A DNA stretch of 64,000 nucleotides, from the NCBI RefSeq assembly GCF_001485215.1, contig NZ_BBWW01000003.1, forward strand, positions 1-64,000, in the 5' to 3' direction. Position 1 is the first letter of the stretch. Each line of letters begins with the position of its first letter. The stretch comes from Leptolyngbya sp. NIES-2104. Lineage in GTDB: Bacteria; Cyanobacteriota; Cyanobacteriia; Leptolyngbyales; Leptolyngbyaceae. Under the pieces are notes generated by a model that was given only the letters and a program-made list of their open reading frames with translations, made no database searches and was not told the origin of the DNA. Made by a program: the position numbers and the translations under genes. Shown here piece after piece: positions 26,574 through 44,851 of the stretch.

Positions 26574-27287
26574 CTACACCGCCAAATATTGGTGAACCAG
26601 TGCATCCGTTAACTCAGATGTTTCACCGTTTGCAACGATCGCTCCCTTTTCCATAATGAAAAACTTCTGAGCCAGTTGCCGAGCAAAATCAATCTTTTGT
26701 TCAACCACCACCACAGTGATCCCCTTTTCGCAATTAATTCGTTTCAGCGTCTCTTCGATTTCCTGCACGATCGACGGTTGAATTCCTTCGGTCGGCTCAT
26801 CGAGCAACATGATCTTGGGATTGCTCAATAGTCCACGAGCGATCGCAAGTTGTTGTTGTTGTCCACCGCTCAACAATCCACCTTGGCGATTTAGGTGCTG
26901 CTTGAGCATCGGGAAAAACTCAAAGATTTCATCAGGAATCTTGCGACGCTTCTTTCCTACCGCCGACATTCCCAGCTTGAGGTTGTCGAGAACAGATAGG
27001 TAAGGAATAATCTCGCGCCCTTGAGGAATGTACGCAATGCCATAACGAGCGCGTTTAAACGTAGGAATTTTCGTGATCTCGTCCGCATCAAACACAATGT
27101 TACCGGACATCACTTTGTTTAATCCAATGACACTTCTGAGCAAGGTTGTTTTACCAACTCCATTTCGACCGAGAATGCAGGCAATTTCACCTTGCTCGAT
27201 CGTCATATTGACCCCGAAGAGAACCGGGGTCTGATCATACGAAACAGTGACATCTGTCAGTTCAAGCAGCTTTGTCAATTTGTTCAC
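26574..27287 (-). CDS. urtE: Urea/short-chain amide ABC transporter ATPase UrtE
   Basis: A 237-aa ATPase of the branched-chain amino acid/urea group. Walker A GRNGVGKTTLL, Q-loop, signature LSGGQQQQLAIARGL and Walker B IMLLDEPTEGIQPS are all present. IAYIPQGREIIPYL is the typical LivF/UrtE segment. It overlaps urtD by 26 bases, indicating translational coupling. It is the last gene of the urt cluster. Confidence 0.93.
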   Translation of the reverse strand: MNKLTKLLELTDVTVSYDQTPVLFGVNMTIEQGEIACILGRNGVGKTTLLRSVIGLNKVMSGNIVFDADEITKIPTFKRARYGIAYIPQGREIIPYLSVLDNLKLGMSAVGKKRRKIPDEIFEFFPMLKQHLNRQGGLLSGGQQQQLAIARGLLSNPKIMLLDEPTEGIQPSIVQEIEETLKRINCEKGITVVVVEQKIDFARQLAQKFFIMEKGAIVANGETSELTDALVHQYLAV

Positions 27288-28035
27288 GACCTAAATACAC
27301 CTCAATGACTTGATTGTTTGATTGAATCTCCTGGACTGATCCTTCTGCTAACTTCTCGCCTTGGTGGAGTACTACAATGCGCTCAGCGATTTGTTTAACA
27401 AATTCCATATCGTGTTCGATGACGACAACCGAATGAGCTTGAGCGATCGATTGAATAATGTCGCCCGTTGCAAAAGTTTCGTCAGTCGTCATGCCTGCGG
27501 TCGGTTCATCGAGCAGTACAACGGTCGGATCTTGAGCAATCACCATGCCAATCTCAACCCATTGTTTCTGTCCGTGAGACAGCGAAGAAACTTTGGCATA
27601 GCCTTTATCGAGGAGTCCAATGCGATCGAGTACTAATTCAATCTTTTCTCGTTTTGCACGAGTTAATTTTGAGCGAATCGATGCCAAGACACTATGCGAC
27701 CCTTTGAGCGCTAATAACAGATTCTCAAACACAGAGAGTTCGTTGTAGACGTTCGGGTTTTGAAATTTGCGACCGATGCCCATTCGTGCAATGTCGTATG
27801 GACTGGAATTCGTAATCTCGCGCCCGTGATAGAAAACATGACCGGATGCAACGGGTGATTTGCCGACGATCGCATCGAGTAGCGTACTTTTGCCTGCTCC
27901 GTTTGGTCCAATGATCGTTACAATCTCTCGGTCTGCAACCTCTAAATCAACGCCCTTGAGCGCTTTGAAGCCAGAGAAGACAACCTTGAGATCTTGAACA
28001 GATAGAACAGGTTCCGTTCTAGAGTCTGCTTGCAT
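27262..28035 (-). CDS. urtD: Urea/short-chain amide ABC transporter ATPase UrtD
   Basis: A 257-aa ATPase with Walker A GPNGAGKSTLLDAI, signature LSHGQKQWVEIGMVI and Walker B VVLLDEPTAGMT, then the H-loop VVIEHDMEFVKQIA. The LSHGQKQ signature and the segment RKFQNPNVYNELSVFENLLLA are typical of UrtD. It works with UrtE as the second nucleotide-binding subunit of the permease. It is 12 bases from urtC. Confidence 0.93.
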   Translation of the reverse strand: MQADSRTEPVLSVQDLKVVFSGFKALKGVDLEVADREIVTIIGPNGAGKSTLLDAIVGKSPVASGHVFYHGREITNSSPYDIARMGIGRKFQNPNVYNELSVFENLLLALKGSHSVLASIRSKLTRAKREKIELVLDRIGLLDKGYAKVSSLSHGQKQWVEIGMVIAQDPTVVLLDEPTAGMTTDETFATGDIIQSIAQAHSVVVIEHDMEFVKQIAERIVVLHQGEKLAEGSVQEIQSNNQVIEVYLGREQIDKAA

Positions 28036-28047
28036 AACATTGATTCC

Positions 28048-29229
28048 TCACCGTTTACTGCGAACACTTTGAATCAACCGAACTAAGGGCGTGTACCAAT
28101 CGAATAGTTCAACTCGTACAAATCCAGCCGTAGAGCTAGACCCTCTTGGTAGGACAATTCGATTGATTTCAGTAAAGCGAAACTTCTTCGGCAGCAGACT
28201 CATCAAGCCATTCGGCAAAAATAGCACCACTGCTAAAAGAATGATGCCAACAATCAATTGCCAATCCTGCGTAACACGATCGACTGAGTTCTGTAGCTGT
28301 CCGAGCAAAATCGCTGCGATTACAGGTCCGAACAATGTTCCTCGACCGCCAACCGCTACCCAAATCACAATCTGCGTTCCAAATGCAACGGCAAGATACA
28401 CCGGAGAAATAAATCTGTTGAGCGGCACAAACAAGCCACCTGCAATTCCGGCAATTCCCGCTGATAATGTCCAGATGAAGATCTTGAAGCTCGCGACATC
28501 ATAGCCCAAGTAAGAAATGCGCTGTTCGTTTTCTTTAACTGATCGTAGAATCAATCCAAAATTTGATTGCGTCAACCACCAGCTACCAGCAATCACAAAT
28601 GCTGTAAAAAACAGAATGATGTAGTAAAGACCAAGCTGGGGTACAACAATGCCGAAGAAGCTCAGCTTTGAAACATCTGTGATGCCGTTTGTGCCGCCAG
28701 TAAATGCTTGTTGACTCACAAAGAAGGTCGTCAGCGCGGACGAAATCGCCAGGGTAATGATCGTGATGTAAACTCCACTCACTTTAGAGCGAAAGATAAA
28801 CCAGCCGATGATATAGGCAAATCCGGCAGGAATCGCGATCATTGCGATCGCGGCGATCGGGAAAAACTGTAAGGGTGCAATAAACCAAGGTAGCTCTTTG
28901 AGTCCGTTCCACACCATGAAGTCCGGCAGTGCAACTCCATAAGTATTCGCGGAGGCTGACAAGTTTAGCTTAAGATAGTACGCCATCGCATACCCGCCCA
29001 GTGTGAAAAAGACACCGTGGGCAAAGCTCAGAATCCCAGTAAATCCCCAAACCAGATCGAGCGAAACCGCTAAAGTTCCAAACAATAGCAGCTTTGCCAT
29101 CAAATTTGTTTGAAAGCTGCCTGCGACGAGTGGGAATACGAACAGAATTAGCAGCAGAACTGCACTGATTACAATTAACCGTTTCGGTACATTTGTTGCT
29201 CTTTGAATTTTTCCAATGACTTCCGCCAT
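28048..29229 (-). CDS. urtC: Urea/short-chain amide ABC transporter permease UrtC
   Basis: A 393-aa membrane protein of the LivM/UrtC family, with about ten hydrophobic segments. Family landmarks include LVWGFTGILSFAHGVFFTLGGYAMA, GGTNGIT and the ATPase-contact region SVKENEQRISYLGYDVASFKIFIWTLSAG. The gene ends 12 bases before urtD and lies 5 bases after urtB. Confidence 0.92.
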   Translation of the reverse strand: MAEVIGKIQRATNVPKRLIVISAVLLLILFVFPLVAGSFQTNLMAKLLLFGTLAVSLDLVWGFTGILSFAHGVFFTLGGYAMAYYLKLNLSASANTYGVALPDFMVWNGLKELPWFIAPLQFFPIAAIAMIAIPAGFAYIIGWFIFRSKVSGVYITIITLAISSALTTFFVSQQAFTGGTNGITDVSKLSFFGIVVPQLGLYYIILFFTAFVIAGSWWLTQSNFGLILRSVKENEQRISYLGYDVASFKIFIWTLSAGIAGIAGGLFVPLNRFISPVYLAVAFGTQIVIWVAVGGRGTLFGPVIAAILLGQLQNSVDRVTQDWQLIVGIILLAVVLFLPNGLMSLLPKKFRFTEINRIVLPRGSSSTAGFVRVELFDWYTPLVRLIQSVRSKR

Positions 29230-29234
29230 GATGA

Positions 29235-30215
29235 TTAGCCCCGCTTCTGAACCGTGAACAAACCTTCTGGGCGATAGCGAATCAGCACAATCACGGCTGC
29301 TAACACAATCACTCTAGCAGTCGGATCGTTGAGCAAATAGGCAAGCGCAGCATTCGATTGCCCAATCAGAAACGCACCTGCTAACACTCCGATCAGTCGA
29401 TCGACTCCTCCGGTAACAACCGTCATCCAAGCATCCACGAGATAATCCTGCCCCATCGGTGGAGCGACACTTTTTAGCGAAGATATGACAGTTCCAGCAA
29501 CCCCTGCTAAACCACATCCATAAGCAAACGTTGCCATGTCAACGAGGCTGGTATTTACGCCCAGACACTTCGCCATATCTCGGTTCTGGGTTACCGCCCG
29601 AACTTCCCGCCCTAGGGGTGTGCCATACAGTAAGTAGGCAGTTAGCGCTAACAATAACAGCGCCATCAGAATGATGAACAAGCGATAGATCGAAATTTGA
29701 ACTGCCTGTCCTCCTGCTTCAAATAAAGTCCAGTTGCCGCGAATGTAAGGCGGCGCTTTCACGTACTTCAACTGAGCCGTAAAAATGAGCTTAACGACCC
29801 CTTGAAGGACAATACTCAACCCCCAAGTCGCCAAGAGCGTTTCTAAAGGGCGACCGTAAAGGCGGCGAATAATCGTTAGTTCTACGATCGCACCTACGAT
29901 CGCGGTAAACAGAAACGAAAATGGAATGGTTAGGAGCAAATCCATCTTAAAGGTACTCTGAAGCACAAAGGTTGTGTAAGCGCCTAGCATGATAAATTCG
30001 CCGTGTGCAAGATTGATAATCCGCATCACTCCGAAAGTAATTGCTAACCCCAGCCCTGTGAGCAGAAGAATGCCTACGATCCCCAGCCCGTTGAGAAGCT
30101 GATTTGCAAACGAGATCAGATCAAATTCTTTCACGGTCGGAGACTGTGCAAGATAGATGATCGAATTCGCGATCGAGGCAATTGGATGATCTATCGAAAT
30201 GGTGTGAGGTATCAA
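29235..30215 (-). CDS. urtB: Urea/short-chain amide ABC transporter permease UrtB
   Basis: A 326-aa LivH/UrtB-type permease with about eight membrane segments. Landmarks are LGLAITFGVMRIINLAHGEFIMLGAY, GRPLETLLATWGLSIVLQG, and TQNRDMAKCLGVNTSLVDMATFAYGCGLAGVAG. It pairs with UrtC to form the channel. The 85-base gap to urtA contains a stem-loop. Confidence 0.92.
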   Translation of the reverse strand: MIPHTISIDHPIASIANSIIYLAQSPTVKEFDLISFANQLLNGLGIVGILLLTGLGLAITFGVMRIINLAHGEFIMLGAYTTFVLQSTFKMDLLLTIPFSFLFTAIVGAIVELTIIRRLYGRPLETLLATWGLSIVLQGVVKLIFTAQLKYVKAPPYIRGNWTLFEAGGQAVQISIYRLFIILMALLLLALTAYLLYGTPLGREVRAVTQNRDMAKCLGVNTSLVDMATFAYGCGLAGVAGTVISSLKSVAPPMGQDYLVDAWMTVVTGGVDRLIGVLAGAFLIGQSNAALAYLLNDPTARVIVLAAVIVLIRYRPEGLFTVQKRG

Positions 30216-30300: not shown

Positions 30301-31689
30301 CTAAATCTTTAGAAGCTCGACTGCCAGATCTTTGTTCGTTTCAACGATCGGATTGCTGCGCTTATCTGGAGCTTGGTGAACACAAATTCGACCTTTGTAG
30401 AGCGCTTGGCTCCAAGGAATCGGTTTTACGGCTGCCTCAGTCGTGAAGACAATTTCAGCCTGTCCGTCTCCCTTCCACTTACCAATCCGAGAATACAGAT
30501 AGGTGTGATAGTTTTCTGGGTCAATTTTGACTGTTCCTTGAGGCGCTTTGAAGACTTGTCCACGAGTGGCTTCTCGCAAACTGGCTGTATTGAGTTCCTT
30601 TCCTTCTTTGAGGGCTTTTTCCATTGCCTGCGCCATGAAGAAGGTTTGGAAGTAGGCAGCTTCCATCACGCCGTTTGTGACTCGATCGGGTCCAAACTTC
30701 GCTTTAAACTGTTCCACAAACGCCTTGTTTTCGGGCGTATCCACAGTTTGGAAGTAGTTAAAACTGGTATAGTGCCCCTCAGCAAATTCAGGACCCATTG
30801 CCTGAATTTCTTCCTCAGTGGTGGGATAAGCCATGATGGGAATGTCTTTCGAGGTAATTCCCGAATCTTTCAACTGCTTGTAAAACGCAGGAATACTATC
30901 ACCCACCAGATTGCTGAGAATAAAGTTTGGCTTTGCCTGCTTGATCTTGTTGATGATAGTAATGAATTCTGTCGTACCTAACGCCGCATATTCATCACCC
31001 ACGACTTCGCCGCCTGCTTTGACTAACTCTGCTTTTGCAATCCGGTTACTTTCTTTCGGATAGATGTAGTCAGAGCCGATAAAGAAGCCTTTCTTACCAA
31101 ACGTCTTCGCACAGAATGGGATCGAGTCAGTAATTTGCTGGTTCGGTGCTGCTCCGGTGTAGAACACATTAGAACTGCATTCATTCCCTTCGTAGTAGAC
31201 CGGGTAATACAGCAGCTTGTCTTTTTCCTCGAATACAGGCAGTACCGACTTACGACTGGCGGAGGTGTAACAGCCCAACACACAAGCGACTTTATCTTCG
31301 TCGATCAGGCGCTTTGCCATTTGGTTGTATAAATCCCAATTTGAGTCAGGATTCACGACCACCATGTCGATCTTTTTACCATTGATGCCCTGCTTGCCTG
31401 ACCAAGGACCTTTCCCCTCATTGATTTGCTCAACTGCGAGGAATGTTGCATCTTGCAAAGACTTTTCTACGATCGCGATCGTACCCGTCGTTGAATACAG
31501 AACTCCCACCTTGATCCCATCACCCGAAGGCGAAGAGACTCCTGTTGCAGTTCCACTGCTTGTAGCAACTGTGTCACTACCTCCACTCGAACAAGCAGCA
31601 ACAACACTGGTACCCAGCGCTAAAGAACCATACTGAATAAACCGACGACGACTAATTCCGCCTACAATCCGAGGTGTGCGCGACTTCAT
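30301..31689 (-). CDS. urtA: Urea/short-chain amide ABC transporter substrate-binding protein UrtA
   Basis: A 462-aa periplasmic binding protein. The N-terminus combines a twin-arginine motif (SRRRFIQYGS) with a lipobox (VVAACSS), so it is probably a Tat-exported lipoprotein. The mature part follows the UrtA/FmdD/AmiC pattern: VGVLYSTTGTIAIVE, GCYTSASRKSVLPV, YPVYYEGNECSSNVFYTGAAPNQQ and ESNRIAKAEL. The direct neighbourhood of fmdA and an FmdB-like gene, and the absence of urease genes here, leave open that it binds formamide or acetamide rather than, or besides, urea. Confidence 0.9.
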   Translation of the reverse strand: MKSRTPRIVGGISRRRFIQYGSLALGTSVVAACSSGGSDTVATSSGTATGVSSPSGDGIKVGVLYSTTGTIAIVEKSLQDATFLAVEQINEGKGPWSGKQGINGKKIDMVVVNPDSNWDLYNQMAKRLIDEDKVACVLGCYTSASRKSVLPVFEEKDKLLYYPVYYEGNECSSNVFYTGAAPNQQITDSIPFCAKTFGKKGFFIGSDYIYPKESNRIAKAELVKAGGEVVGDEYAALGTTEFITIINKIKQAKPNFILSNLVGDSIPAFYKQLKDSGITSKDIPIMAYPTTEEEIQAMGPEFAEGHYTSFNYFQTVDTPENKAFVEQFKAKFGPDRVTNGVMEAAYFQTFFMAQAMEKALKEGKELNTASLREATRGQVFKAPQGTVKIDPENYHTYLYSRIGKWKGDGQAEIVFTTEAAVKPIPWSQALYKGRICVHQAPDKRSNPIVETNKDLAVELLKI

Positions 31690-32006: not shown

Positions 32007-33215
32007 CTAAACGGGCAGAATGTTTTGATCAAAGATCGCGGTTGGAATTGCCAAGGTACAACAAGCATTTGGAACATCCACAATGCCGCTCACTCGACCC
32101 TCCACAGGCGCACAGCTTAACAGTAAGTAAGCTTGCTCTCCGGTGAACCCGAACTTTTTGAGATACTCGATCGCATTCAAACAAGCCTGACGGTAAGCAA
32201 TATGCACATCCATGAAGTACTGCTTGCCTGTAAATTCATCAACTGAGATTCCTTCAAACACAAGGTACTCAGAGTAGTTAGGTTCAACAGGTCCCGGCTT
32301 AAAAATCGGGTTGACCATGCTGTACTTGTCCACACCACCTTTGATGATGTCTACGTGGAGATCGATATAGCCAGACATCTCGATCGCGCCGCAGAATGAG
32401 ATTTCACCATCTCCTTGTGAAAAGTGGATGTCACCCATTGATAGCTTTGCGCCTTCTACGTAAACCGGGAAGTAGATGCGCGTTCCTCTCGACAAATTCT
32501 TGATGTCGCAGTTCCCTCCATGTTCTCGTGGTGGAACAGTACGAGCCGCTTCAGCCGCAACGCGATCGTATTCTGACTTGTCTAATGTTCCTAGAATGGC
32601 ATTGGTTGGATTGGGCAAGGTTGCAAGCACTGGAACGCCATCGATGTTAATACCTGCCCCGTACGTTCGTCGATCGGGCTGAGTTGTCATCAGTTCCGTT
32701 TCTCGCTTGTTCCACTTCGCCAATAGTTCATGCGAAGGAGCGCAACCGATCAAACCAGGATGAGTAATTCCGGCAAATTTAACACCTGGAATGTGACGAG
32801 ATGAAGTGTAAATTCCTTGAAAATCCCAAATCGCTTTTGCAGCAGATGGAAAATGATCCGTTAAAAATCCTCCTCCATTCTTCTTGTCAAAAATGCCTGT
32901 AAAGCCCCACTCATCCCCTTGCAAGGCTCCAATATCAACTAGATCAACAACGAGGATGTCTCCCGGCTCAGCCCCATTCACCCAGATTGGACCACTCAGT
33001 ACATGAACAACACTGAGATCAACATCTCGAATATCATCAGGACTATCATTATCTTTGATTTGTCCATCTGTCCAATCTTTGCATTCAATCCGAAACACAT
33101 CACCCGGATTCACTGAAACAACGGCTGGAATATCTGGATGCCAACGATTGTGTCCTGGTAGCTCTTGCTGATCCATTGGTTTCGTGAGATCAACTTTGAA
33201 TAGAGTCTTGGGCAT
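32007..33215 (-). CDS. fmdA: Formamidase (acetamidase/formamidase family)
   Basis: A 402-aa enzyme that matches formamidase from start to end: MPKTLFKVDLTKPMDQQ, HNRWHPDIPAVVSVNPGD, RIECKDWTDGQI, VVDLVDIGAL, HPGLIGCAPSHELL, REHGGNCDIKNLSRG and FSQGDGEISFCGAIEMSG. It hydrolyses formamide to formate and ammonia in the cytoplasm. An excellent ribosome site (AAGGAG) precedes the ATG. It is the first gene of a probable operon with fmdB and urtABCDE, expressed from the NtcA-type promoter about 200 bases upstream. Confidence 0.93.
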   Translation of the reverse strand: MPKTLFKVDLTKPMDQQELPGHNRWHPDIPAVVSVNPGDVFRIECKDWTDGQIKDNDSPDDIRDVDLSVVHVLSGPIWVNGAEPGDILVVDLVDIGALQGDEWGFTGIFDKKNGGGFLTDHFPSAAKAIWDFQGIYTSSRHIPGVKFAGITHPGLIGCAPSHELLAKWNKRETELMTTQPDRRTYGAGINIDGVPVLATLPNPTNAILGTLDKSEYDRVAAEAARTVPPREHGGNCDIKNLSRGTRIYFPVYVEGAKLSMGDIHFSQGDGEISFCGAIEMSGYIDLHVDIIKGGVDKYSMVNPIFKPGPVEPNYSEYLVFEGISVDEFTGKQYFMDVHIAYRQACLNAIEYLKKFGFTGEQAYLLLSCAPVEGRVSGIVDVPNACCTLAIPTAIFDQNILPV

Positions 33216-33421: not shown

Positions 33422-33463
33422 ATTCTAGAGACAGAGTAACTAGAGTTTTGTACTTCGCGATAC
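33422..33463 (-). promoter_or_regulatory. NtcA-activated promoter of fmdA-fmdB-urtABCDE
   Basis: On the minus strand the palindrome GTA-TCGCGAAG-TAC (33450-33463) fits the NtcA consensus GTA-N8-TAC. Exactly 22 bases later comes TAGAAT (33422-33427), which fits the -10 form TAN3T. This is the class II NtcA promoter layout (NtcA site near -41.5). The predicted leader is about 200 nt. NtcA activates nitrogen-scavenging genes in cyanobacteria under nitrogen limitation. Confidence 0.8.
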
Positions 33464-33623
33464 GATTCAATTAATTTGTTAACTTTAAACAAGTGAAAAA
33501 TTAAGTACTGAATAAACAGGCGAAAAAGTTTCCAGAGAGAGCGATTGAAGCATTCCCCAGCTTGTCAACGAGAAAGGCGAAAGTCGATCTCCCAATCAAT
33601 TCGATGGGATCAACTTCCGCTGT

Positions 33624-33702: not shown

Positions 33703-34788
33703 CTAGAGGCTGGTCGAAACCGGAACAGTTGCGGGCTGAGACTTCTCCGGAGCGATCGGCAGCTTTTGATTGGGTAATCCTTCGATCGGGCACTCAGGTG
33801 TTCCAACTGTTGGACGAGTGAGCGATTCGACTTTCTCTTTGGTTTTCTTCGGATCTAGAATCCATTCGCGGTAGAACTCATAAGGACACTCTGCCATCCC
33901 ATCCGAGCCATCACCAGAGTTCAGCATTCCGGTGTAACCCCGATGGAGCAATTTAAAGAGATGGTTTTGAGATTGAGCATTCTTGCGGAAGTCGCGAATG
34001 GCAAACTTCGACAGTGCTGCGTATTGAATGCCGTTTTCTTCTTCACCGCATTCACCTAAAGTCCGTCCATCAAATCCGACCACGGCTGAATGTCCAAAGT
34101 AGCTATACACTCCGTCAAATCCAGCAGCATTCGCAACAGCAACATACACATTGTTCATCCATGCCATTGCTTTAGACACCATGATTTGCTGATCTTTGGC
34201 AGGATACATATAGCCCTGACAGCGAATGATCAGTTCTGCACCTTTCATCACGCAATCGCGCCAAATTTCAGGATAGTTGCCATCATCACAGATGATCAGA
34301 CTGATCTTCAAGCCTTTTGGACCGTCTGAAACATAGGTGCAATTCCCTGGATACCATCCTTCGATCGGTGTCCATGGCATGATTTTTCGGTACTTCTGAA
34401 CAATCTCACCCTGATCATTCATCAAAATGAGGGTGTTGTAAGGCACTTTGTTGGGGTGGTCTTCGTGTCTTTCGCCTGTGAGTGAGAAAACGCCCCAGAC
34501 TTTGTTTCTGATGCAAGCTTCTGCAAAAATCGCGGTTTCTTCACCGGGTATGATTGCAGCAGTTTCCATCATTTCACCGGGATCGTACATAATCCCATGA
34601 GTGGAGTATTCAGGAAAGATCACTAAATCCATCCCCGGTAGACCCAATTTCATGCCATCAATCATTGAAGCAATGTTTTTGCAGTTCTCAATGACTTCTG
34701 TTTTGGTGTGCAGACGCGGCATTTTATAGTTAACCACCGCAACTCCAACAGCATCATTACTCGAAGAAATATCACCGTGATAAGACAT
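33703..34788 (-). CDS. amiE: Aliphatic amidase AmiE
   Basis: A 361-aa nitrilase-superfamily amidase closely matching Pseudomonas AmiE along its length ([37 protein letters not shown]). The catalytic Glu60 (VIFPEYS), Lys135 (KYRKIMPW) and Cys167 (LIICDDG) are present, offset by one residue from the Pseudomonas numbering. It hydrolyses acetamide and similar short amides to acid plus ammonia. The start at MSYHGDIS is chosen for its GGAGG site; an upstream start six codons earlier is possible. It is preceded by its own NtcA-type promoter. Confidence 0.93.
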
Positions 34789-34978
34789 TCTGACCTCCAA
34801 TTGCATTCAAAATCATCTTGGCTCGTCACAAACTTGAAAGATTAGTGAGTAATCTTCCTGTCAACACAACACTATTAAACTTTCAGAATTTTGACGATCG
34901 CTGCTCGTTGATCAGAGCGACTCAACCCTGCACCACCAATCCACTGATTTCTAGACGGCTCTTGGTGGCATGACAAGC

Positions 34979-35021
34979 ATCATAGGGAAAGCGTCTAGCG
35001 AATTTTGTATCTAGTTTTACA
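34979..35021 (-). promoter_or_regulatory. NtcA-activated promoter of amiE
   Basis: The minus strand carries TGTA-AAACTAGA-TACA (35006-35021), a symmetric NtcA site GTA-N8-TAC. After exactly 22 bases TATGAT follows at 34979-34984 (TAN3T, a -10 box). The layout and spacing equal those of the fmdA promoter. The leader to the amiE start is about 185 nt and includes a 7-bp hairpin (AAGATTA and TAATCTT) some 60 bases before the start codon. Confidence 0.82.
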
Positions 35022-35113
35022 CTTAATAGTTAATCTCTTAACTATCTTCTGATAATACAGATTTTCCTGACTTATCAAGGCTTCCAGCCAGCGAAAAGAA
35101 ATGGAGGCGGTCT

Positions 35114-36286
35114 CTAATTCGCCGATCCTTCACCCAAAATCGTTAAGCATTTCCGCGCCAGTTGAATCATTTTCTGGCGTTCTGTGTCATCCAAAGTTTC
35201 GAGCAAATGAGAAATCTGATAGTCATCTTGAGGATCAATCCAGCCTAAAAATTCTTGTCCTTTCGGAGTTAGCCTTACTTTTAACGCTCGTCGATCGCTA
35301 GGATTATGATCTCGCTCCACGTATTTTTCTTGCTCTAAGCCATCGAGCAACCCCGTCATTGCTGCTCTCGATACTCCACAATGTTTTGCTAACTCAGATG
35401 GACTAGCACAGTGATCAGATTCTTCGTTCAAATACATCAAGACTGAAAGCTTTGTTTGTGACAGTCCTAGTTTTGCTGAGTGTTCGTCAGTGAGGCGTAG
35501 CACTAATCGAGCAATCTGAGTAATCATCGTTAGCGTAGACAGCGCACCTGTATTCGATCGATTCAGAATATCATTTGTCACTTGGGTCACTAACCGACCG
35601 AGCGTTTCAATTTTTTCACTGTAAGGAGAAGGTTGAACGGCTTGGAGCCGGAGCAAAGACTGTTCGAGTTGTGCGACTTTTTCCCGCTCCTGACGTTCAC
35701 TCGATCGTAGATCCGCTGCTGCTTGCTGATACTCGATTAATTGCGATCGCAGTTTTTGACTCATTTCCAACATTTGCATAAAAGTCGAAAAAGCTCTCAG
35801 CGCTGTTACGACCGTAAGAAGCAGCTTTTCAGAAGTTAGTTCAGTTTTAAGTTTGTAATCATCAATTTCATAGTGAGTAGTGACATGAATCTCCGGAGCT
35901 TGTCCGGGCTGTCCAGTTCGTAAAATAATTCGTGCAGGCTGATTGCCTACCTCTTCGCGTACGTATTTGACGAACTGTAATCCTGCATCTTCTGTCTCCA
36001 TCACGACATCTAGGAAAATGATCGCGATATCCGGATGCGATCGGATCAACTGTTTCGCTTCCTCAGCAGAATAAGCGCTGATAAACGTGAGCGATTTATT
36101 CTCAAACGTCACATCACTCAAAACGAGTTTTGTCACTTCATGAACTTCAATCTCATCATCGACAATCAAAATCTTCCAACTTCCGTCAAGCGATCGAGTT
36201 TCGGTTTCTTCGGCAAACTGAATTTCGTCTTGAGCAAAAATCAACTCATCGCTTTGAGAATCATGAGATTGAACATTCATTGACAT
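35114..36286 (-). CDS. Response regulator-MarR fusion
   Basis: A 390-aa protein joining two normally separate regulators. Residues 38-165 are a receiver domain (ILIVDDEIEVHE with Asp43/44, phosphoacceptor Asp93 in IIFLDVVMETED, then RIILRTGQPGQ). Residues 165-225 form a coiled-coil linker (LRSSERQEREKVAQLEQSLLRL). The last 160 residues are a MarR-type winged helix: LGLSQTKLSVLMYL, HCGVSRAAMTGLLDGLE and the wing RDHNPSDRRALKVRLTPKG. MarR proteins bind DNA as dimers and often repress. It lies 91 bases downstream of the permease-kinase gene, on the same strand, so the kinase is its likely phosphodonor and amiE or fmdA its likely targets. Confidence 0.85.
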   Translation of the reverse strand: MSMNVQSHDSQSDELIFAQDEIQFAEETETRSLDGSWKILIVDDEIEVHEVTKLVLSDVTFENKSLTFISAYSAEEAKQLIRSHPDIAIIFLDVVMETEDAGLQFVKYVREEVGNQPARIILRTGQPGQAPEIHVTTHYEIDDYKLKTELTSEKLLLTVVTALRAFSTFMQMLEMSQKLRSQLIEYQQAAADLRSSERQEREKVAQLEQSLLRLQAVQPSPYSEKIETLGRLVTQVTNDILNRSNTGALSTLTMITQIARLVLRLTDEHSAKLGLSQTKLSVLMYLNEESDHCASPSELAKHCGVSRAAMTGLLDGLEQEKYVERDHNPSDRRALKVRLTPKGQEFLGWIDPQDDYQISHLLETLDDTERQKMIQLARKCLTILGEGSAN

Positions 36287-36377
36287 AGCAAACTTTTACC
36301 GATAGGAATCTATTAAACGCTTAGAAAATCGACTTTAAACAGGAACTGATTGAGAGGACGATCATGAAAAATACGGC

Positions 36378-39170
36378 TCAAGGTTTCGGTAGCGTAATGA
36401 TGAATTTAGTTCCTTGGGAAGGTTGACTCTCACACCGAATCTTGCCATTCAGCTTTTGAGTCACCAAGTTATAAACAATAGGTAATCCTAAACCACTGCC
36501 TCCTTGCCCCCGTCTCGTTGTAAAAAAAGGTTCAAAGATCCTACTGATGTTCTCAGGTGCGATCCCTTGACCGTCATCAGCATACTCAAAAATGATCTGA
36601 TCCTCAACCGCTACAAAGCACAATCGAATATAGCCCTGATCTCCTGGCTCATAGGCGTGGAGCAGAGAATTCATGATTAGATTCGTTATGATTTGCGAAA
36701 ATGCACCCGGATAACTATTGAGTGTCAAAGCTGCGTCTCCCTGAATGTCGATCGTATGCGGTGTGGGTTTAAGCACTGGGCTAAGTTGTAACAACACTTC
36801 TTCTAGATAACATTTGAAGTTGAACACGCGCTTAGACTCGCTCGATTGGTCAACTGCGACCTGCTTAAAGCTCTGAATCAATTGAGCCGCTCGATTCAGA
36901 TTGTTCAAAGTCATCTGGCTGCTTTGATGCGCGAGATCGACAAATTTTTCTAAGTCCGATCGCTTAATTGCATTCCGCTTAAATGCCTCTGAAAAAGCAG
37001 TCGTCTTCTCGACTAACAAGGAAGCCGCAGTCACTCCAATCCCGATCGGTGTATTAATTTCATGAGCAATCCCCGCGACCAGACCACCGAGGGCTGCCAG
37101 TTTCTCGGTCTGAATCAGTTGTGCTTCTGCTTGTTGTAGATTGTGCAGCGTTTGTTCTAGCTGTTGAGCTTTTTCTTGCAGTTGAATTTCTGCTAACTGC
37201 CGTTCTTCGACTTCTTGCTGAAGGAGGAGATTCTGTTTGTCGAGTTCTTCCTGAGCCAACTGCCGACTTTCCTGTGTCAGAATCAACCACCAGGAGCTAA
37301 TCCCAATGACGACAAACAACACCGCAGAGACTTCGATCAAAGTCGCGTTCAACCGTTCTACCATTCGCTGATCTAAATCAGGTTGGCTCACAACCTGCTG
37401 GTAGTACACGACTCCTAAAATCACACTTAGAAGCGTTGATAGAGAAAAGAACAAAGCCAAATATTTCAGCAATCTCACTTTTGTTCGCGGCGACAGTTTC
37501 GCTTGTAAGACGCTTTTAACCGTGAGTTTGTCTGAATTCTGATTCAAGTTTGAAGTCGTTTTGCAAGCGTCGTGACAGCGCATATCAAGGCTACAACATA
37601 AGGAACAGATAGCATCGCTATAGACTGGACAGAATGCCATATCTTGAGGTTCGTATTCCTGTTCGCAGATACAGCAATGAATCGTATGTGTGCAATCTGA
37701 GTAAGCATCTTCACGAGCAATGTAATATTTTCCCTGAGTCAAAAACGCGATCGCTGGAACTAAAACGATCGCAAGTCCCAACGCGATAAACGAGGCAAAC
37801 GCTTTCGCCACTGAGCCAAACAATCCGACAAACGCGCTCATCGACACGATCGACGCAATCAGAACGGCACCACATCCCACCGGATTAAAGTTATAGAGGT
37901 GCGCTCGTTTAAATTCAATATAAGAAGGACTCAGACCCAGAGGTTTATTGATCACCAAATCTGCAACTAATGCACCCACCCAAGCGATCGCAACATTTGC
38001 ATAAAGTCCTAGCACCGCTTCCAACGTAGCAAACACACCCAGTTCCATCAATAAAAGGGCGATCACCACATTGAACACAAGCCAAACGACCCTCCCTGGA
38101 TGACTATGTGTTAGTCGAGAGAAGAAGTTTGACCAAGCCAGCGATCCCGCATAAGCATTCGTCACATTAATCTTCACCTGAGACAGAATCACGAAAAAAA
38201 CGGTCACTGCAAGCGCGATCGACGGATTCGAGAACACCGACTCAAACCCAACAGAATATATTTGAGTTGGCTGCTTCGCTTCAATCAGACTCATTCCATG
38301 CTGAATCGCTAATGCAGCTAAAAACGAGCCTCCCAACTGCTTCGCACAGCCGAAAAAAATCCATCCCGGACCCGCCAACACCACAGCTAACCACCACTTA
38401 CCGCGATTCGTTTCCTGCTGATCCGGCAAAAACCGCAAATAGTCTACTTGTTCACCGATCTGCACAATCAAAGAAAACGAAACCGTTGCCGCAGTCCCGA
38501 ATAACAGCGGGTCAAACCCCGCCCCACTACTCGACTGTCCAGCAAACTGTATCCAATTCGACAGTGAATCGGGCTGTTTATACAAGACACAAACATAAGG
38601 TAGAACCAGCAACGTCAGCCAGATTGGTTGAGTCCAAAGATGTAATTGATTAATCAATGTCACGCCAAAAAAGACGAGCGGAATAATCGCCAAAGAACAA
38701 ACCACATACCCGATCGCTAACGGCAAGTGAAAATATAGCTCTAACGCCTGCGCCATGATCACCGCTTCGAGCGCAAAAAAGATAAACGTAAACGAAGCAT
38801 AAATTAAGGAGGTAATCGTTGACCCGATATATCCAAACCCTGCGCCTCGTGTCAGCAGATCCATATCAATGTTGTATTTGGCGGCATAGTAGGCGATCGG
38901 GAGTCCGGTCAAAAAAATGATCGCTCCGACCGTGACAATTGCCCAAAAAGAATTCGCAAAGCCATAGTTAATCGCAAGCGAACCCCCGATCGCTTCTAAT
39001 GCCAAAAACGACAGTCCCCCAGTTGCCGTATTCGTAACCAACCACTCTGACCATTTCCGAAACGATTTAGGCGCAAATCGCAGCGCGTAATCTTCGATCG
39101 TTTCTGCTGCAACCCAGGAATTATAGTCGCGCCTAACTTTAACAATCTTGAAGTTTGACTGAATGGGCAT
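36378..39170 (-). CDS. NCS1-permease/sensor histidine kinase fusion
   Basis: A 930-aa protein. Residues about 40-490 are a purine-cytosine/allantoin (NCS1) type permease with a dozen membrane segments (NTATGGLSFLALEAIGG, DLLTRGAGFGYIGS). Residues 490-535 form a cysteine- and histidine-rich stretch (HTIHCCICEQEY, ICSLCCSLDMRCHDAC) that could bind a metal. Two further membrane segments (about 565-630) and a coiled coil lead to a histidine kinase: phosphoacceptor His near 706 in AGIAHEINTPIGIG, N box NLIMNSLLHAY, G1 DDGQGI, and G2 GQGGSGLGLPI. The permease part could sense, rather than only import, an amide-like nitrogen compound. It lies upstream of the REC-MarR gene with 91 bases between. Confidence 0.88.
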   Translation of the reverse strand: MPIQSNFKIVKVRRDYNSWVAAETIEDYALRFAPKSFRKWSEWLVTNTATGGLSFLALEAIGGSLAINYGFANSFWAIVTVGAIIFLTGLPIAYYAAKYNIDMDLLTRGAGFGYIGSTITSLIYASFTFIFFALEAVIMAQALELYFHLPLAIGYVVCSLAIIPLVFFGVTLINQLHLWTQPIWLTLLVLPYVCVLYKQPDSLSNWIQFAGQSSSGAGFDPLLFGTAATVSFSLIVQIGEQVDYLRFLPDQQETNRGKWWLAVVLAGPGWIFFGCAKQLGGSFLAALAIQHGMSLIEAKQPTQIYSVGFESVFSNPSIALAVTVFFVILSQVKINVTNAYAGSLAWSNFFSRLTHSHPGRVVWLVFNVVIALLLMELGVFATLEAVLGLYANVAIAWVGALVADLVINKPLGLSPSYIEFKRAHLYNFNPVGCGAVLIASIVSMSAFVGLFGSVAKAFASFIALGLAIVLVPAIAFLTQGKYYIAREDAYSDCTHTIHCCICEQEYEPQDMAFCPVYSDAICSLCCSLDMRCHDACKTTSNLNQNSDKLTVKSVLQAKLSPRTKVRLLKYLALFFSLSTLLSVILGVVYYQQVVSQPDLDQRMVERLNATLIEVSAVLFVVIGISSWWLILTQESRQLAQEELDKQNLLLQQEVEERQLAEIQLQEKAQQLEQTLHNLQQAEAQLIQTEKLAALGGLVAGIAHEINTPIGIGVTAASLLVEKTTAFSEAFKRNAIKRSDLEKFVDLAHQSSQMTLNNLNRAAQLIQSFKQVAVDQSSESKRVFNFKCYLEEVLLQLSPVLKPTPHTIDIQGDAALTLNSYPGAFSQIITNLIMNSLLHAYEPGDQGYIRLCFVAVEDQIIFEYADDGQGIAPENISRIFEPFFTTRRGQGGSGLGLPIVYNLVTQKLNGKIRCESQPSQGTKFIITLPKP

Positions 39171-41664: not shown

Positions 41665-42288
41665 TTGGACAGGTTTGAAAGTAGTACAGATGTATACTCG
41701 ATCATTGCCAGTTCGACAAAAAACGAAGTCTACCGCAGTCGAGAATATCTCATTCCGAACGAGACACTTCGTTTGATCGAAGTTGCTGGGGAACGGAGTC
41801 GTCATCGACTGCGTGATCGCACACTCCTCCTGATGTTTCGTCACGGATTGAGAACCGGAGAAGCTTCACGATTGAAATGGGATGCAGTCATGTTAAATGA
41901 TCGAAATATTTCGATCACTCGACTCAAAGGGAGCCAGAGCGGCATACATCGACTTCAGACCAGCGAGATTAAAGCACTAGAGCAACTGAAAGAACGCTAT
42001 CCCGGTAACTACCATCTGTTTGTCGGGGAGCGAGATAAGAAATTGGCGACGGGTGCGATCGCGAAAATTATGAAATGCACTGGAGAGTTAGCCGATCTGC
42101 CCTTACCTATTCATCCTCATATGCTGAGACATAGCTGCGGGTACTACCTGGCTGAACAGGGATTACCCACGCGAGACATTCAGAAATATTTGGGACACAA
42201 GAACATTCAGCATACGGTGAGATATACGGCTGCAAATCCGGCTCGGTTTGATCGAATTAATTGGCAGTTGGTAGAGATATTGAGATGA
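41665..42288 (+). CDS. Tyrosine recombinase/integrase
   Basis: A tyrosine recombinase of at most 207 aa without an N-terminal core-binding domain. Catalytic residues are visible: Arg in MFRHGLRTGEASRLKW, Lys in ITRLKGSQSG, HxxR in HMLRHSCG, His in YLGHKNIQHTVRY and the nucleophilic Tyr in that last motif. This short FimB-like form is common in cyanobacteria. The start is uncertain: the frame opens with TTG and family members usually begin a little before REYL. No matching attachment sites were found. Confidence 0.8.
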   Translation: MDRFESSTDVYSIIASSTKNEVYRSREYLIPNETLRLIEVAGERSRHRLRDRTLLLMFRHGLRTGEASRLKWDAVMLNDRNISITRLKGSQSGIHRLQTSEIKALEQLKERYPGNYHLFVGERDKKLATGAIAKIMKCTGELADLPLPIHPHMLRHSCGYYLAEQGLPTRDIQKYLGHKNIQHTVRYTAANPARFDRINWQLVEILR

Positions 42289-44008: not shown

Positions 44009-44851
44009 TCACGCTTTTGCTTCTTTCATGTTCACATTCTTTAGACTACTACAATACACTTGATTCGGTGTCTTGTATTCTAATCCTTGATGTGGTCTGA
44101 CTTGATTGTACCATTGAAACCAGTGTTTCACTTCTTGATTCAAATGCTGTCCATTCTCGAATGACTTGAGATAAATCAACTCATACTTCAAACTCCGCCA
44201 TAATCGCTCAATGAAAATGTTGTCATGACATCTGCCTCGCCCATCCATGCTGATGTTGATTTGAGCTGCTTGGAGACAATCGATGAACGCTGTCGCCGTG
44301 AACTGTGCGCCTTGATCACTGTTAAAGATCTCTGGCTTGGGATAACCCGCTAATGCTTCATCCAATGCCTCCACACAAAACGCCACTTCTAACGTGTTTG
44401 AGATGCGCCATGACAAGACTTTGCGGCTGTACCAGTCCATCACTGCTACCAGGTAAAAGTGTCCCTTCGCGCCTGGAAGATAGGTAATGTCGGTACACCA
44501 GACCTGATTCGCATTCGTAATGGCTAATCCTCGCAGCAGATAGGGATAAATCCGATGCTCTGGATCGGCTTTGCTGGTATTGGGTTTCGGATAGATCGCA
44601 TACAACCCCATCTCCCGCATCAACCGTTGCACCCGTTTTCGATTCACGTTGTACCCTCGCGATTGCAGAAACACCGTCATTTTCCGACTGCCGTAAAACG
44701 GCGTTTCCAAGTATTGTTCGTCGAGCAACCGCATGATTGCCAGTTCTTCTTCCGACGGCGGCAAAGCTTGGTAGTAGAAACTCGATCGCGCAATGCCCAA
44801 CAATTCACACTGACGCACAATGCTCAACTCTGGATGCTCTGAATCTACCAA
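44009..44851 (-). CDS. IS3 family transposase OrfB
   Basis: 280 aa with the DDE core of IS3 enzymes: WCTDITYLPG (first Asp), FNSDQGAQFTATAF (second Asp) and FIERLWRSLKYE (Glu). The N-terminal HTH_21 region reads LLGIARSSFYY. It overlaps orfA by seven bases, which allows the usual programmed -1 frameshift to make the OrfAB transposase. The genes are complete. Confidence 0.88.
   Translation of the reverse strand: MVDSEHPELSIVRQCELLGIARSSFYYQALPPSEEELAIMRLLDEQYLETPFYGSRKMTVFLQSRGYNVNRKRVQRLMREMGLYAIYPKPNTSKADPEHRIYPYLLRGLAITNANQVWCTDITYLPGAKGHFYLVAVMDWYSRKVLSWRISNTLEVAFCVEALDEALAGYPKPEIFNSDQGAQFTATAFIDCLQAAQINISMDGRGRCHDNIFIERLWRSLKYELIYLKSFENGQHLNQEVKHWFQWYNQVRPHQGLEYKTPNQVYCSSLKNVNMKEAKA

Follow-up and report, generated by a model that had tools for sequence, protein, structure and literature searches.

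What does a permease-like protein that carries a histidine kinase sense, and which promoters does its partner regulator control? The question is raised by a 64-kb stretch of Leptolyngbya sp. NIES-2104 (positions 1 to 64,000 of contig NZ_BBWW01000003.1, in a genome of 6.39 Mb; hereafter the window), in which a gene for a 930-amino acid (aa) permease-histidine kinase is followed, after 91 bases, by one for a 390-aa response regulator that joins a receiver (REC) domain to a MarR-type DNA-binding domain (REC-MarR). As reported in a first-pass annotation, both open reading frames (ORFs) are intact; amiE, fmdA and a urtABCDE-like set follow in this order on the same, minus strand (Table 1). That annotation had proposed that the pair senses a small nitrogen compound and controls amiE and fmdA. 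We put at about 0.7 the probability that the pair consists of a transporter-type protein sensing a short amide or urea and a MarR-type response regulator that receives its signal and works beside NtcA.

A candidate operator and its NtcA-type neighbour

A perfect inverted repeat, TAGTTAA-N4-TTAACTA, first spotted by eye between REC-MarR and amiE, is our candidate for the REC-MarR operator. The copy at 35027..35044 is the sole one with 0–1 mismatches in the genome. In its 12-base core form, AGTTAA-N4-TTAACT, the window holds one exact match (35028–35043) and one single-mismatch match 5' of fmdA (33469–33484); the other 25 matches have two or three mismatches, and in all there are no more matches than expected by chance (27 vs 27.0). 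Across 194 genomes of relatives, 19 exact dyads were found, eight in the 14 genomes with REC-MarR (six at amiE, one at a permease-fmdA cluster and one at a nitrile hydratase gene) and 11 in the other 180. Where amiE neighbours REC-MarR, all ten intervening regions tested contain the dyad with at most one mismatch, against 4 of 20,000 shuffles of these regions, and across sites the arms are conserved, while the spacer varies.

A search of the 194 genomes for amiE orthologs at E 1e-100 returned 26 genomes, 12 of them with REC-MarR. A dyad with at most two mismatches within 650 base pairs (bp) of amiE was present in 11 of these 12 genomes vs none of the 14 lacking REC-MarR (Fisher p 1.6e-6, uncorrected for kinship). 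Control of amiE by the pair, as put forward in the first-pass annotation, is thus well supported by a conserved candidate operator that tracks REC-MarR. In the 14 REC-MarR genomes, 13 of the 21 sites with at most one mismatch lie at relevant loci, ten at amiE and one each at a permease-fmdA cluster, a nitrile-hydratase/cobW locus and an fmdA/permease-kinase gap; four of the remaining eight, inspected by eye, revealed nothing relevant. The amiE gene of genus g21 is distant from REC-MarR; in G067 and G094 (handles of individual genomes), the sole site of this quality in the genome lies upstream of the distant amiE, and G043 bears a two-mismatch site at its amiE, not beside REC-MarR. G174 gave no amiE match. 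One of its two exact sites precedes a run of an unassigned ORF, a stand-alone permease and fmdA; the other lies between a nitrile hydratase gene (PF02979, E 2e-89) and a cobW-like gene, behind which cobalt-uptake-like genes follow (named by eye). Nitrile hydratase produces amides, which makes the set of putative targets coherent.

A second conserved block in the site alignment fits the NtcA consensus, GTAN8TAC-N22-TAN3T. In a best-fit promoter search allowing gaps of 0–24 and spacings of 20–24, all 13 dyad-bearing amiE promoters showed one layout: the dyad, a gap of 3–14 bp, GTAN8TAC, exactly 22 bp and TAN3T (the box of G008 has one mismatch). The same layout occurs at fmdA in the window, at permease clusters of G174 and G040 and at the cobW promoter of G174, where the NtcA box has one mismatch; it was not found in two directions in G188 or in the nitrile-hydratase direction. 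By this consensus, the amiE and fmdA promoters thus fit the NtcA regulon as predicted NtcA sites, with the boxes GTAAAACTAGATAC and GTATCGCGAAGTAC in the window. Judging from the gaps, the dyad centre is 19–30 bp upstream of the centre of the NtcA box; with NtcA at −41.5, as we assume, the dyad would come to lie near −60 to −72. Among 14 amiE promoters from genomes without REC-MarR, ten have the NtcA module and none the dyad. Because these promoters often have the module and never the dyad, the shared foundation appears to be NtcA control, to which the dyad would be added as a layer linked to REC-MarR. The box beside the candidate operator had been missed in the first-pass annotation, and the likely regulatory logic therefore changes. 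A rise of FmdA and nitrile hydratase in nitrogen-depleted Arthrospira, described in the excerpted text of PMC4509649, fits NtcA-type control of amide genes.

We then scanned 388 genomes of this class for a pattern consisting of a half-dyad, 2–16 bp, the NtcA box, 21–23 bp and TAN3T, which gave 39 sites in 38 genomes. Thirteen of these sites fall in 13 REC-MarR genomes, 12 at amiE and one at a permease-fmdA cluster. At the 30 pattern loci examined, the second arm has at most one mismatch in ten, all from REC-MarR genomes, and 3–6 mismatches in 20. Of the 38 pattern genomes, 28 were searched for REC-MarR, which was present at full length only in G233, G262 and G268; the other 25 yielded no full-length REC-MarR. 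G233, which was not among the REC-MarR genomes identified until then, was thus predicted by the pattern and then confirmed, with permease-kinase, REC-MarR, dyad and amiE all present. The dyad signal resides in position and in the second arm, not in raw genome-wide counts. Among the 26 pattern sites in genomes without REC-MarR, adjoining genes were checked at one, in G149 (G149:C1:183507-183563), where the half-dyad and NtcA module lie just upstream of an orphan permease-kinase.

The sensor, the regulator and their company

The pair has the features of a predicted two-component system: a kinase with H-box and HATPase, a receiver with the Asp, Thr and Lys residues, and paired genes. On the sensor side, the earlier assignment of a histidine kinase holds, with a match to HATPase_c (PF02518, E 1.7e-24) and an H-box containing H703; HisKA stays below the Pfam cut-off (19.6 vs 26.9 bits). 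The Cys-rich stretch noted before is also real, with ten Cys within aa 493–536, six of which (C499, C502, C514, C522, C525 and C526) are invariant among 23 permeases, four of them stand-alone. Between this stretch and the kinase lies a hydrophobic pair (aa 565–634) that the first-pass annotation lacked. Stand-alone permeases of about 550 aa, 64–66 % identical to that of the sensor, retain the Cys-rich segment, which is therefore a feature of the transporter family. Three acidic residues of the permease (E135, E240 and D243) are invariant and occur in conserved segments.

The permease part had been called NCS1. A plain assignment to that family was discarded: the part has no Pfam match even at E 10 and only weak, unrelated NCBIfam matches, and the NCS1 profile PF02133 finds a different gene of the same genome. 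A remote relationship is nevertheless suggested by hhalign, in which a 23-sequence permease profile aligned with the Pfam-NCS1 proteins found in related genomes (73 %, E 3e-5, 370 columns). A low-confidence AlphaFold model from nine sequences (predicted local distance difference test [pLDDT] 57, predicted template modelling score 0.54) gave Mhp1 as best Foldseek match (E 1.7e-7) and then CodB (E 1.3e-6), with other LeuT-fold families close behind; VIA Z values for this model were 20.2 for CodB, 19.1 for Mhp1 and 18.8 for NIS. SLC5-type NIS folds thus rank just under CodB and Mhp1, and neither SLC5 nor STAC was matched by the permease part in Pfam. Remote profile match and fold model together suggest NCS1 as the nearest family, and support a divergent, remote NCS1 relative with a LeuT fold, other LeuT-fold families scoring nearly as high. 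Both AlphaFold models are weak (pLDDT 57 for the permease, 53 for REC-MarR), and we make no residue-level claims from them. A tree of 38 rows unites the sensors linked to REC-MarR (support 92/88, slightly short of the tool's star) and places the four cyanobacterial stand-alone permeases in a separate group (100/98); several proteobacterial rows are long-branched.

On the regulator side, the fusion of REC to MarR is borne out by matches to MarR (PF01047, E 6e-13, 48.9 bits vs a cut-off of 24.6) and to Response_reg (E 2.6e-6), the latter at 28.0 bits slightly below its cut-off of 30.2. D43/D44, D93, T124 and K147 are invariant in seven REC-MarR sequences (the window's and six relatives), and a segment reading SRAAMTGLLD in six of them reads TRAAMTGLLD in the seventh. 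Foldseek with the low-confidence REC-MarR model returned MarR folds. Relatives of the receiver (80 loci kept of 269) bear outputs other than MarR; among ten that were scanned, DUF3369 occurs in five (with HD in three, with GGDEF-EAL in one and by itself in one), while of the other five one has a cyclase, one a kinase, one a sigma-54 ATPase, one SpoIIE and one nothing further. The predicted receiver is thus a promiscuous module. In one cyanobacterium (L128, 8199–12579), receivers of this family and kinase-type matches follow one another in turn.

The first-pass annotation had made its proposal hinge on co-occurrence of the two genes elsewhere, and this check did not refute it. Among the 194 relatives, 14 have REC-MarR: both halves were found in 13, and in G008 the MarR half, located at the end of a contig; G262 (= L032), G268 (= L031) and G233 bring the total to 17. 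In 16 of these 17 genomes, REC-MarR is directly preceded by a permease-kinase gene of the same orientation, the gaps between matches being 29–120 bp (352 bp in G233, 432 bp in G146). The seventeenth is G008, whose contig ends inside REC-MarR; here a permease cut off by the end of a different contig fits the same arrangement. The converse, that REC-MarR accompanies every permease-kinase, was rejected, as other cyanobacteria have a permease-kinase without REC-MarR; three such kinases adjoin a REC-kinase hybrid, and a Vibrio permease-kinase adjoins a REC-DUF3369-GGDEF-EAL protein. A second cyanobacterial class (L161–L170) has a diverged kinase (30–35 % identical to the window's), a well-conserved permease (69–75 %) and neither REC-MarR nor an amide gene alongside; five of these loci were read by eye.

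The predicted permease-kinase is common in Proteobacteria. Thirteen annotated proteobacterial regions, picked from top and spread lists, contain fmdA in eight cases, a urt-type transporter in eight and urease in two; none of these occurs in Tistrella. Fused kinases, recognised by match or from length and annotation, are present in 12 of the 13; of these 12, 11 adjoin fmdA, urt or urease and 11 are followed by a listed response regulator, one annotated as LuxR family. Stand-alone permeases adjoin fmdA at three of four cyanobacterial loci (L120, L121 and L171; not L172), and in Acinetobacter lwoffii (L260, 8001–15774) one directly precedes a urease gene set, an arrangement that suggests an unrecognised family of urea transporters. 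Gene context in two phyla thus supports the sensing of a small nitrogen compound, the ligand itself being predicted, and the predicted tie of the sensor to short amides or urea holds across phyla with differing output regulators. The permease was also found in 536 plasmid records, 525 of which hold most of it; 342 of the 536 are Klebsiella plasmids. In two Klebsiella plasmid regions that were read, L257 (NZ_OM489427.1) and L261, it is fused to a kinase, annotated just as "ATP-binding protein", and lies beside fmdA and urtABCDE.

The proposed circuit and its alternatives

In the circuit that we propose, the transporter-like domain (LeuT fold, NCS1-like) would bind a short amide or urea, and the signal would pass through the Cys-rich segment, the hydrophobic hairpin and the coiled coil to the kinase, which would phosphorylate D93 of REC-MarR. 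As the first-pass annotation suggested, phosphorylation of the receiver may alter the geometry of the MarR dimer. A REC-MarR dimer would bind TAGTTAA-N4-TTAACTA, 3–14 bp upstream of the NtcA box at amiE promoters and, in some genomes, also sites at fmdA, at the stand-alone permease-fmdA cluster and at the nitrile-hydratase locus. Transcription would need nitrogen shortage, through NtcA, and would depend, through REC-MarR, on whether the compound is present; a cell may use amides only if it is short of nitrogen and senses amides.

How REC-MarR would act on NtcA-dependent transcription can be read in two ways. We lean slightly towards co-activation with NtcA, rather than a repression that the signal lifts, since the dyad is placed 5' of an activator box and leaves the core promoter free. 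The alternative, somewhat less probable, is a classic repressor: REC-MarR in its unphosphorylated form would occupy the dyad and obstruct NtcA or the alpha subunit of RNA polymerase until the signal releases it. MarR proteins are usually repressors, and in the 17 promoters with both elements the dyad, at a distance of 3–14 bp, is near enough to the NtcA box to hinder NtcA; yet it overlaps neither the core promoter nor the NtcA box in any of these 17, and the gaps of 3, 4, 6 and 14 bp, too few for a test, fall roughly on one helix face, as for a contacting activator.

The ligand of the permease might instead be something other than an amide or urea, such as a nucleobase, a hydantoin or a cation, with amidase control as one of several outputs. 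Such a ligand would fit the closest folds of the permease model, which are nucleobase/hydantoin transporters, the invariant acidic residues and 11 cyanobacterial permease-kinase loci with no amide gene beside them. We nevertheless consider it unlikely, given that 12 of the 13 proteobacterial regions provide a context of fmdA, urt or urease and that stand-alone paralogues adjoin fmdA (three of four cyanobacterial loci) or a urease gene set. That the dyad is read by another regulator, such as one of the stand-alone MarR proteins of the same genomes, leaving a different role to REC-MarR, is improbable given the absence of the dyad from all 14 amiE promoters in genomes without REC-MarR and given G233, where the composite site at amiE foretold REC-MarR.

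Several observations count against the proposed circuit. By number alone, the dyad is not enriched: reversed patterns outnumber it at one mismatch or less in the 14 REC-MarR genomes (35 vs 21), at two or less in the window's genome (83 vs 14) and in the half-dyad search (about 100 vs 39), and the latter missed four of the 17 REC-MarR genomes (G008, G040, G124 and G188). G040 has REC-MarR and amiE and no dyad at amiE, only a degenerate copy at its permease cluster (3/14 mismatches); the copy at fmdA in the window is equally degenerate (3/14), and fmdA in G004 is without the composite layout. The earlier claim that fmdA is controlled thus stands in part, on a weaker site in the same promoter layout in the window, and does not extend to every relative. 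The dyad is missing from the other nitrile-hydratase genes inspected in these genomes, five strong matches and one weak, and a general link between the two was rejected, as it concerns one locus only. The dyad (at most two mismatches) is found at none of seven urtA promoters, so that dyad control of urtA was likewise dismissed although four of the seven have the NtcA module, and at one of 13 permease-kinase promoters, in G188. In addition, the REC-MarR genomes span five families of one class and therefore represent fewer events than genomes, and 11 cyanobacterial permease-kinase loci are without adjoining REC-MarR, amiE or fmdA. The sequence itself displays the gene pair, the catalytic residues, the dyad and the NtcA-type module, and that these occur together; the ligand, the phosphotransfer, the binding of the sites by NtcA and REC-MarR and the sign of the control are what we infer from it.

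Elements of such a circuit are known from other systems. CbrA/CbrB and CrbS/CrbR (PMC13022988 and PMC9100948, in excerpt) are SLC5-STAC transporter-kinases of LeuT fold with a paired regulator and a role in nutrient sensing. The present pair resembles them in the fusion of a probable LeuT-fold transporter to a histidine kinase, in the paired regulator and in its predicted role in nutrient sensing; it differs from CbrA in being NCS1-like rather than SLC5, with the Cys-rich segment and hydrophobic hairpin in place of STAC, and from CbrB, of sigma-54 type, in its MarR output. KsAmt5, an ammonium transporter fused to a kinase and thus another nitrogen-compound transporter turned sensor (excerpt of PMC8534201), has an Amt domain and another ligand. 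The REC-MarR architecture is not new, because MarR-output response regulators have been counted in Azospirillum, one in strain B510 and two in Sp245 (Table 5 of PMC4618731, as excerpted); they are of the same class, a likeness drawn from description and not from sequence, and the excerpts name neither a function nor a partner for them. MarR is not mentioned in the main text of PMC3333781. Compared with the known fmd/urt short-chain amide cluster, which has the same fmdA and Urt-like ABC transporter, a candidate regulator and site are added here. In Pseudomonas, amiE is likewise under amide-dependent control, by AmiC/AmiR; AmiR, however, is an antiterminator with an ANTAR domain, and no kinase is involved. 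The composite promoters share the consensus GTAN8TAC-N22-TAN3T with NtcA-activated promoters and have the REC-MarR-linked dyad just upstream in addition.

In the open PubMed Central literature, we found no description of the pair, of its operator or of the NtcA composite promoter, nor of the widespread family of transporter-like sensor kinases. While transporter-kinases such as CbrA and KsAmt5 and MarR outputs are known, the combination, the operator and the composite promoter thus appear new within the literature searched. The results provide this sensor family with a concrete, testable regulon and candidate operator, and a MarR-output response regulator with a predicted DNA site. With the candidate site abutting an NtcA-type box, they also raise the question of how a signal-specific and a global nitrogen regulator share one promoter, and may help in building a genetic switch that responds to amides or urea. 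As a wider scheme, which we offer tentatively and hold somewhat less probable than not, a transceptor-type urea/amide kinase would drive a MarR-type regulator that serves as a phosphorylation-switched partner of NtcA, forming, at a composite promoter, an AND gate of nitrogen shortage and substrate for amide and nitrile use, with the permease-sensor shared across phyla and the regulator swapped (MarR vs others).

Features of the locus

AmiE and FmdA score above the NCBIfam equivalog cut-offs; the binding protein of the urt-like set falls below that of UrtA (Table 1).

Table 1. Positions of genes and candidate regulatory elements in the window
Feature	Position	Strand	Basis or remark
Permease-histidine kinase, 930 aa	36378..39170	-	intact ORF; HATPase_c, H-box
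Permease-kinase layout			permease aa 1–~488; Cys-rich 493–536; hydrophobic pair 565–634; coiled coil (by eye); H703; HATPase 824–929
Cys-rich segment of the permease family (aa 493–536)	37563..37694	-	kept in stand-alone permeases too
REC-MarR response regulator, 390 aa	35114..36286	-	REC aa 39–148 with D93; linker; MarR about aa 245–390
Candidate REC-MarR operator, TAGTTAA-N4-TTAACTA, between REC-MarR and amiE	35027..35044	.	dyad search
NtcA-type box of the amiE promoter, GTAAAACTAGATAC	35007..35020	-	6 bp from candidate operator
-10-like TATGAT of the amiE promoter	34979..34984	-	22 bp past NtcA box
amiE, aliphatic amidase	33703..34806	-	NF009802, 709.8 bits
Weaker operator copy 5' of fmdA	33469..33484	.	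1 mismatch in 12-base core, 3 in 14-base form
NtcA-type box of the fmdA promoter, GTATCGCGAAGTAC	33450..33463	-	4 bp from weaker operator, then N22-TAGAAT
fmdA, formamidase	32007..33215	-	NF045496, 673.4 bits; PF03069
urtA-like amide/urea ABC transporter binding protein	30301..31689	-	below UrtA cut-off, 425.1 vs 492.75 bits
urtB-like permease	29235..30215	-	TIGR03409 above cut-off
urtC-like permease	28048..29229	-	ORF; name from position and by eye
urtD-like ATPase	27262..28035	-	ORF; name from position and by eye
urtE-like ATPase	26574..27287	-	ORF; name from position and by eye

The amiE leaders, measured in 13 promoters from the -10 element to the start used, span 175–439 nucleotides. In the window the leader (34807–34978) is long, only partly conserved in the alignment and without an Rfam match; an Rfam scan of the whole window gave no RNA family at gathering scores. 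Further along, ORFs at 41665–42288 and 44009–44851 resemble a tyrosine recombinase and a transposase, respectively, judged by eye from their translations.

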